A stretch of DNA of 64,000 nucleotides from Crossiella cryophila (GTDB lineage: Bacteria; Actinomycetota; Actinomycetes; Mycobacteriales; Pseudonocardiaceae): contig NZ_JACHMH010000001.1 in NCBI RefSeq assembly GCF_014204915.1, positions 8,519,501-8,583,500 of the forward strand. Reading direction: 5' to 3'. Shown here piece after piece: positions 30,748-53,637 of this stretch. How positions within the stretch are numbered: the first letter of the stretch is position 1; each line of letters opens with the position of its first letter. The position numbers and the translations under genes are program-made. Below the pieces are notes generated by a model. The model saw only the letters and a program-made list of their open reading frames with translations, did not search any database and was not told the origin of the DNA.

Positions 30748-30790
30748 GGAGCTGAATATACAGTGCCACGATATATACGCCAACCAGTTA
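30748..30790 (-). promoter_or_regulatory. padR promoter with two AT-rich operator-like sites
   Basis: Read on the minus strand, the sequence upstream of ATG 30747 holds GTATATATCG (30778-30769) and GTATATTC (30762-30755), two GTATAT half-sites about 16 bases apart. PadR proteins commonly bind AT-rich repeats overlapping their own promoter. The first site matches the recurring CGATATAT word described in the findings. Assignment is by position. Confidence 0.45.
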
Positions 30791-30810
30791 TCCACAGGCC
30801 GCGGGGATCG

Positions 30811-31020
30811 CGCGGGGTTGACGCCCCGTGGGGCGGAGGGGTGAAACCCCCACGACGAGGGTTCTCGCGTGTTCTCCGTACGGCCTGGAGCTTGCTGACC
30901 GCGCCCCGAGGAGCGGCCCCTGCAACCCGCCGCCGCCCTAGCCTCCCCAACGTGACGGGGGCCGCTCCTCGGGGTGTGGTTGGCTTGCGGAAGGCCGTGC
31001 GGAGAACACGCGAGCCCTCG
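30811..31020. repeat. Long nested inverted repeat in the padR/beta-propeller intergenic region
   Basis: A long hairpin-forming element. Its outer arms are 30856-30885 and 30993-31020, about 28 bp with a two-base bulge and one mismatch (CTCGCGTGTTCTCCG paired with its complement). Its inner arms are perfect over 17 bp: CCCCGAGGAGCGGCCCC (30904-30920) with 30958-30974. Two small hairpins precede it: GGGG-TTGACG-CCCC (30814-30827) and GGGG-TGAAA-CCCC (30838-30850). The second lies in the context GCGGAGGG, identical to the central hairpin of the 22-bp arrays further on. No open reading frame here looks coding. Confidence 0.65.
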
Positions 31021-31176
31021 GAGCCACGCTGGGTCTTGAGTCGGCAGCCCAAACCCATGCCCCGCAACCTGCTTGCCCGGCTCTTGACTTGCCCTCCCCC
31101 TCCGGTGGTCTGCCCGGCCGGCGAGGCCATCTTTTCCGCTCTTGATCTTTGCGCTTGTGGCCTCTGTTGCTGAGGT

Positions 31177-31630
31177 ACACGAGCGACAGTCAAGAGCGTC
31201 CTCGCCGGACGGGCAGAAATCAAAGGATGGGGGGGAAAGTCAAGAACAAGGGCAGAGAAGAAGAGCAGTGCTCGTACGGTTCCCCCATCCCCGTCAGCCC
31301 TCCGATACCAAACCACATCCCGGGCACGCAGACCGTTGCGGTTGAGAGGCTAGGGCGGCGGCAGGTTGCGGTCTGCGCACCCGGGATGTGGTGTGTCCTC
31401 TCCAGGCTGACGGGGATGGGGGAACCGCTCGGGGAGTGTTGAAAAGCCACCCCGACTGCCCGTCCTCGGGCTTCGCCCGGTCGCAGTGCCTATGGCGTAC
31501 AAGAACGGCCAACACTGGGTACGACAACGGCCAACACGCGCGGAGGGTTGAAACCCTCGTCGGCGTGTTGGCCGTTCTGGGACGGGGTGTTGGCCGTTGT
31601 TGTACGGGGTGTTGGCCGTTGTGGGTGGGT
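31177..31630. repeat. Composite structured repeat, copy 1 (hairpin plus inverted 22-bp array)
   Basis: Shares order, orientation and sequence with 53048-53637. Module 1 (31177-31440) contains a 149-nt hairpin at 31278-31426. Its stem 1 is 31278-31299 with 31405-31426 (22 bp perfect), stem 2 is 31312-31324 with 31380-31392, and stem 3 is 31328-31334 with 31370-31376. Then comes a short CGGGC-TTC-GCCCG hairpin (31467-31479). Module 2 is an array of 22-bp units beginning GTGTTGGCCGTT: two inverted units (31494-31537), a 27-nt spacer with GAGGGTT-GA-AACCCTC (31543-31558), and three direct units (31565-31630). The last unit ends at the stop codon of the beta-propeller gene. No coding potential is believed. 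Confidence 0.85.
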
Positions 31631-53026: not shown

Positions 53027-53047
53027 GCCGGGGTCCCCTTCCTCGGC

Positions 53048-53637
53048 GTGTTGGCCGTTGTCGTACGGGGTGTTGGCCGTTGTGGGACACGAGCGACGAT
53101 CAAGAGCGTCCTCGCCGGACGGGCAGAAATCAAAGGATGGGGGGAAATCAAAGGCACAGAGCAGTGCTCGTACGGTTCCCCATCCCCGTCAGCCTTCCGA
53201 TACCAAACCACATCCCGGCAAGCAGCCCGGTTGCGTTTGTGTTGACTTGGCGGCGGTTTGTGTTGCGGGGCTGCTTGCCGGGATGCGGTGTGTCCTCTCC
53301 AGGCTGACGGGGATGGGGAACCGCTCAGGTGGGGTTTGAAAAGCCACCCCGGCTGCTTGTCCTCGGGCTCCGCCCGGTCGCGGCGCGGTCGAACCGCCTA
53401 GCCGCCACGCTTCGGGCTTCGCCCGCCTGCCCCCGACGCTCACCGCTCCGGGCTTCGCCCGCCCACAACGGCCAACGTGCCGTACAAGAACGGCCAACAC
53501 ACCGTCCCATAACGGCCAACACGCGCGGAGGGTTGAAACCCTCGCCAGCGTGTTGGCCGTTCTTGTACCGGGTGTTGGCCGTTTTCGTACGGTGTGTTGG
53601 CCGTTGTTGTACGGCTTGTTGGCTGTTGTGGGTGGGG
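53048..53637. repeat. Composite structured repeat, copy 2 (hairpin plus inverted 22-bp arrays)
   Basis: Same order and orientation as 31177-31630. Two 22-bp units (53048-53091) stand right after the toxin gene. The hairpin module follows at about 53087-53340: stem 1 is 53174-53194 with 53302-53322 (21 bp perfect), and stems 2 and 3 merge to 53207-53228 with 53268-53289 (22 bp, one mismatch); the total length is again 149 nt. Three short CGGGC hairpins follow (about 53364-53376, 53412-53424, 53448-53460). Then come a partial and two full inverted units (about 53462-53522), the 27-nt spacer with GAGGGTT-GA-AACCCTC (53528-53543), and four direct units (53550-53637), the last touching the TAA of the GNAT gene. 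Confidence 0.88.

Follow-up and report, generated by a model that had tools for sequence, protein, structure and literature searches.

The question raised by this locus is whether a long hairpin that occurs twice in the window (the whole 64,000-nt stretch of DNA analyzed, G000:C1:8519501-8583500) is kept for its structure and, if so, in which molecule it folds. The source genome, G000, is a single contig of 10,058,141 bp. The original prediction had described two 149-nt stretches with the same fold, and both were present at 31278-31426 (copy 1) and 53174-53322 (copy 2). Folding of 181-nt segments around each confirmed a long hairpin in copy 1 (-123.9 kcal/mol, z -10.4) and in copy 2 (-115.0 kcal/mol, z -8.5); in neither case was any of 200 shuffles equally stable. 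The differences that had been taken as compensatory, CCCCC/GGGGG versus CCCC/GGGG in stem 1 and GCAGACC/GGTCTGC versus GCAGCCC/GGGCTGC in the upper stem, were likewise found in the sequences of the two copies. Rfam 15 gave no match at gathering score to the window or to 10 related loci.

A bipartite palindrome and its copies

Both copies in the window are real, but they are two of many. A search of the whole G000 genome with the motif TCAGCCNNCCGATACCAAACC, allowing up to two mismatches, gave 65 matches. One of these (position 2780927, L095) had no hairpin around it and was dropped as a chance match, leaving 64 true copies scattered over the 10.06-Mb chromosome of this soil bacterium: window copy 1 and 63 copies at loci L032-L094. 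The spread is uneven, with one copy in the first 1.6 Mb and four between 5.1 and 7.4 Mb.

The 149-nt hairpin forms the right-hand half (B) of a large intergenic bipartite palindrome, A-C-B. Its parts in the window are as follows.

30786-31503, unstranded: 718-bp unit of copy 1 holding A-C-B, absent at the syntenic site of the congener G004 (18 bp there)
30856-31020, plus strand: module A of copy 1, a large hairpin with outer stem, internal loop, inner stem and variable loop
31104-31135, plus strand: left-half core of copy 1, a bulged hairpin GGTGGTCTGCC-CGGCC-GGC(G)AGGCCATC followed by TTTT
31188-31217, minus strand: right-half core of copy 1, TCTGCCCGTCCGGCGAGG in the minus-strand reading and then T-rich, from sequence
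31278-31426, minus strand: module B of copy 1 (149-nt hairpin), from fold and pairing counts, with wobble pairs on the minus strand
31496-31620, unstranded: separate D hairpin of 22-nt units GTGTTGGCCGTT..., with a similar D hairpin at the same site in G004
53044-53088, plus strand: D units left of copy 2, from sequence
53110-53127, minus strand: core of copy 2 (short form, without module A), from sequence
53174-53322, minus strand: module B of copy 2, from sequence and fold
53462-53634, unstranded: D hairpin right of copy 2, from sequence

The long form A-C-B accounts for 37 of the 64 copies and a short form without intact A for the other 27. G000 has 37 sequences that match the 3' arm of module A, each about 270-310 nt from a B motif, and one additional copy (L088) has a partial module A. 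In the long copies read by eye, which are a part of the set, a GGGGTT tract typically comes first and module A second; the left core and the inverted right core follow, then module B with small hairpins behind it, and often a D hairpin closes the series. The GGGGTT tract varies in length: 15 consecutive units, telomere-like in sequence, stand immediately left of module A in L072, four in L081 and two in L037.

Modules A and B are homologues that have diverged and stand in inverted orientation to each other. A B profile and a B covariance model both match A on the opposite strand, and in congener sequences the internal-loop residues of A are, by eye, the same as in the reverse complement of B. 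The profile work used 62 of the 64 B sequences (L035 was missed by the regular expression and copy 1 lay outside the set) and 36 of the 37 A sequences. The terminal loops, which had been described as freely diverged, turned out by eye to group into a few recurrent families. The B loop of copy 1 is 84% complementary to the A loop over 37 nt, as expected because A is the inverted homologue of B. Complementarity of this origin makes no case for kissing loops between A and B, and in some copies (e.g., L036) the loop families of A and B are unmatched by eye.

The D hairpins belong to a separate and commoner repeat. The 22-nt unit GTGTTGGCCGTTNTNGTACGG has 703 matches in G000 at up to one mismatch, and its arrays make separate hairpins at gene ends. 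At the copy 1 site, G004 carries the D hairpin and lacks A-C-B. In another genome (G115, L131), an array of GAAGGGGCCCTTCATC-type palindromic units adjoins the hairpin in a layout that resembles the D arrays.

Pairing and the folded strand

Pairing of module B was examined in an alignment of 29 sequences from four Crossiella genomes, chosen for diversity (left out were 3 of 18 G000 representatives, L049, L062 and L085, and 3 of 15 matched B sequences from the other genomes, L101, L102 and L111). Altogether 98.6% of 1384 stem cells were paired, and 20 of 48 pairs showed two-sided change. In none of 500 shuffles did pairing or the covariation score come up to the value of the real alignment. Further pair types were no more numerous than in the shuffles, 498 of the 500 having as many. 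Sliding the partners by 1-3 columns reduced pairing to 35-45%, in a comparison that favors the actual structure since it was derived from the same sequences.

Within G000, partner columns of B, 44-148 columns apart, gave no four-gamete pair in 12, with a mean normalized mutual information of 0.86. The corresponding values were 36/132 and 0.25 for wrong partners, and 2/11 and 0.34 for neighboring variable columns. Two-sided stem changes also distinguish the congeners. The covariation of module B is therefore genuine and exceeds what a recent duplication would give, pairing being kept by matched changes. In module A, partners gave 0/5 four-gamete pairs (0.64), wrong partners 7/20 (0.43) and neighbors 1/4 (0.69); partner linkage here is not above neighbor linkage, and A alone does not make the point.

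Wobble mismatches are distributed very unequally between the strands, and such strand specificity indicates the folded strand without experiment. Read on the plus strand, the helices of B contain no G.U and 43 A.C cells in G000 (A.C being G.U on the minus strand) and 0 and 10 in the congeners. The helices of A, whose inner stem in copy 1 is formed by 30904-30920 and 30958-30974, have 142 G.U versus one A.C cell in G000 and 81 versus 2 in the congeners. Distinct wobble counts based on position are inflated, since an event shifted by one base is recounted, above all for A in the congeners. Counted once per sequence context, in a recount that covers G000 and in which events sharing descent are not independent, G.U to A.C stands at 0 to 9 in B and 8 to 1 in A. 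Mismatches of transversion type (B, 65 cells in G000 and 37 in congeners; A, 7 and 53) are located at the outer end, the internal loop and the loop edge.

Wobble pairs sit on the minus strand in B, opposite to the strand folded in the original prediction, and on the plus strand in A; each half therefore seems to be read from the gene beside it toward the interior of the element. A mutation bias of the replication strands is disfavored because the signs of A and B are opposite. Transcription-linked C-to-T mutation could imitate the wobble bias, yet it also requires transcription in that direction. In a second genus, g26, with the core strand as sense, the left hairpin has 1 G.U versus 8 A.C cells (1 versus 2 distinct) and the right hairpin 0 versus 2; these few data lean to the opposite sign from Crossiella.

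The prediction had ascribed the conserved pairing to selection on RNA or cruciform structure. Selection on pairing stands, but a purely cruciform reading is weakened because the wobble strands are asymmetric. Its interpretation was partly supported in this sense; it had missed that the hairpin makes up one half of a two-part element, that the other strand carries the wobble pairs, and that the copies appear to evolve in concert.

Gene ends and relatives

Gene context was determined for 63 of the 64 copies with a codon-usage ORF caller made for this analysis, which differs from standard annotation. No copy lay inside a predicted gene. The flanking genes were convergent in 42 cases, (-,-) in 14, (+,+) in 6 and divergent in one. 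Control gene pairs at the same loci were convergent in 40/270 and divergent in 51/270 cases, and control gaps of at least 100 bp in 13/102 and 39/102. Against these gaps, the copies show a clear excess of convergent (p 1e-12) and a deficit of divergent (p 5e-9) neighbors. The B-side gene ends toward B in 56 of 63 copies, including 25 of the 27 short ones, and 28 of 36 long copies have an A-side gene that ends toward A. In the window, copy 2 lies between convergent ORFs of the ORF list; copy 1 is flanked by two minus-strand genes, one PadR-like and one for a beta-propeller, so that its left neighbor (PadR-like) is directed away from A. As a separate observation, the orientation of B differs between the chromosome halves (15 plus and 22 minus below 5.1 Mb, 20 plus and 7 minus above; p 0.01).

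A T-rich tract, defined as at least 5 T within 12 nt, follows 163 of 177 cores (82/92 in G000, 50/50 in G003/G004, 27/27 in genus g26, 4/8 in other genera), compared with a frequency of 2-6% in 12-mers drawn at random from these loci. In folds of one copy from each of two genera, a bulged hairpin stands directly before the T run, and the left-half core of copy 1 looks terminator-like. A simple terminator scan found nothing in copy 1 or in L160; in copy 2 it gave two sites, both away from the core, a rate close to that of shuffled sequence. Several g26 copies lie, by eye, behind another, ordinary terminator (left L165, L167, L186 and L187; right L163), and read-through may therefore be rare there.

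Bidirectional intrinsic terminators resemble A-C-B in their position at gene ends and in a hairpin, predicted for the A-C-B core, with a T-rich tract on each inward strand. A-C-B differs from them in an extra hairpin of roughly 150 nt ahead of the core, in a 20-nt core kept across genera, in its likely concerted evolution, and in that the simple scan misses its core. Compensatory change in terminators is described in the literature (PMC5381666).

The element is not limited to this strain. Searches with the window DNA found matches in three of four other congeners (G001 had none), and the covariance model at E<=0.001 matched 7 of 150 family genomes in 4 of 46 genera, i.e., three genera besides Crossiella, one of them with a weak and partial match (G008, E 4e-4). 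The exact core CCTGCCCGTCCGGCGAGGAC was present in 26 of 397 genomes of the order and 12 of 86 genera, all in the family Pseudonocardiaceae, to which Crossiella belongs, without a match in the sampled genomes of the order outside the family. Genome G066 of genus g26 has 41 exact cores, and in most g26 loci read a large hairpin stands on either side of the core, the whole being placed behind genes. In the other genera, where flanks of core matches were viewed in part, a large hairpin ahead of the core was seen in L170, L171 (G017) and L174 (G101) but not in L172, L173 (G115) and L175 (G089).

Single hairpins are missing in some relatives: B in the G002 loci read (L097, L103), and the left hairpin in g26 loci L159, L166, L168 and L169. 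In these loci the gap lies between short direct repeats (GGATGGGG; GGTCATCCC), which fits palindrome-linked deletion; insertion is possible as an alternative. Two G004 loci at sites shared with G000 (L214, L216) have A and no strong match to B. The whole unit is also variable: at the copy 1 site, the flanks on both sides are present in G004 (82% and 87% identity), with 18 bp instead of 718 bp between them, and no target duplication was recognized by eye at this one empty site.

We examined 20 G004 element loci out of about 25 distinct places listed. Nine gave a candidate for a site shared with G000; two were dropped because element and flank were in opposite orientation (L212/L046, L215/L070), leaving 7/20, one of them (L206/L056) on a single flank only. 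Element identity at the seven shared sites was 69-77%, and non-orthologous copies had means of 72-77%, whereas copies within a genome had means of 81-94%; flank-only aligned segments at the shared sites were 86-94% identical. Because orthologous elements are no more alike than non-orthologous ones and copies within a genome are more alike, the copies of each species seem to change together, likely by concerted evolution, although independent refilling of shared hot-spot sites would give the same identity pattern. Four-gamete pairs among copies (233/820 in B, 111/325 in A), counts that recurrent change and alignment shifts also raise, fit a shuffling of variants by gene conversion.

Readings of the element

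We favor the reading that A-C-B is a bipartite, bidirectional 3'-end RNA element behind genes, preferentially between convergent genes, and consider its chances about even, a weighting slightly reduced on account of the inflated wobble counts. Reading of each half would run from the adjacent gene into the element. The transcript would first fold into a giant hairpin of very high stability, whose internal loop is conserved (A on the plus strand, B on the minus strand), and then reach the conserved core, with a possible bulged hairpin and a U-rich tract. The core may help to end transcription, and the giant hairpin may shield or mark the 3' end of the transcript and keep two convergent transcription units apart.

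The main and serious rival, somewhat less probable in our view yet a real possibility, is a MITE- or REPIN-like palindrome, mobile but non-autonomous, that spreads through the genome and of which only copies behind genes are tolerated. Its hairpins would be ends recognized in the form of folded single-stranded DNA and would serve no function for the host. The 64 dispersed copies in one genome, the presence or absence of 718 bp at a syntenic site, the species-specific copy families and the inverted halves all agree with it; inverted ends are typical of MITEs, and here A is the inverted homologue of B, although the short copies have no intact A. Tolerance of G.T could also stem from folded single-stranded DNA. 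On the other hand, the G004 loci at G000 sites suggest that part of the set is old, or that the sites are hot spots, and the empty site, as noted, lacks a visible target duplication. The presence of the exact core in 12 genera also argues against mobility. The only transposase family searched for, Y1 (PF01797, the RAYT enzyme of REPINs), was found in 2 of 12 genomes, G000 (in a match containing a stop) and G002. It was undetected in the other 10, which include G003, G004, G066, G113, G129 and G145, six of the 10 having at least 20 core matches; single-stranded transposition by a Y1 enzyme was rejected on this basis. Carriage by plasmids or viruses was rejected as well, since neither the window DNA nor one g26 copy had a match and the exact core had none in viral contigs. 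No transposase-bearing version was recognized, the coverage of four spaces of 4-4.6 kb between paired cores being a list of their ORFs. These spaces lie between core pairs on the same strand in g26 (L176-L179), where an autonomous element is possible. In L183 (G066), the second hairpin is interrupted, by eye, by other DNA, possibly a transposon insertion. The 3'-end RNA reading and the mobile palindrome are compatible with each other.

Known dispersed repeats were compared with A-C-B by description. ERIC/YPAL repeats are single palindromes of enterobacteria, about 130-170 bp long, intergenic and folding over their whole length. A-C-B resembles them as a long, intergenic, folding palindrome but is bipartite, and we know of no such layout among repeats of the ERIC/YPAL type. 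REP repeats are described in two papers as dispersed extragenic palindromes, often in inverted pairs, downstream of genes or between convergent or unidirectional ORFs, with GT pairing in their stems used as an argument that many are transcribed (PMC3733652, PMC3116915). A-C-B is like the REP/REPIN families GTAG and CGTC in being dispersed, extragenic (in the 63 of 64 copies tabulated), in inverted pairs and behind genes. However, REPs measure 20-40 bp and carry an unpaired GTAG or CGTC tag, whereas the A-C-B hairpin has about 149 nt and the CGTC of B is paired within the outer stem; REPINs moreover have a RAYT transposase, a family undetected in 10 of the 12 genomes searched. As a 3'-end RNA element, the reading favored here, A-C-B would work like REP/ERIC repeats, which does not imply membership. 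A search of open-licence papers retrieved none that we recognized as describing A-C-B.

An element acting at the DNA level, whether by cruciform extrusion or as a palindrome that binds protein and takes up the supercoiling between convergent genes, is unlikely. Positive supercoils do build up at convergent junctions, the inverted repeats are very long, and one-sided changes are rare in B, as expected if the arms were copied onto each other as DNA. A cruciform, however, folds both strands and should show no preference, while wobble is nearly restricted to one strand, and to opposite strands in A and B. Chance or a recent duplication without selection would account for the likeness of copies within a genome but is highly improbable and already contradicted for B by the shuffles, by the partner linkage above that of neighbors and by the two-sided changes that separate congeners.

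Whether the palindromes dispersed in bacterial genomes are selfish DNA or RNA elements is an old debate. The large copy set, the several related species and the bipartite layout make both questions testable here, and the orthologous sites suggest concerted evolution of the copies. A more far-reaching proposal, which we regard as doubtful for now, is a new class of gene-end RNA in the Pseudonocardiaceae, with paired inward-reading giant hairpins, a conserved internal loop and core, a putative dedicated binding factor and dozens of dispersed copies actively homogenized in each genome, both stem arms changing together. If the RNA reading is true, A-C-B would be a shared bidirectional gene-end device of these actinobacteria, unmatched in Rfam 15.
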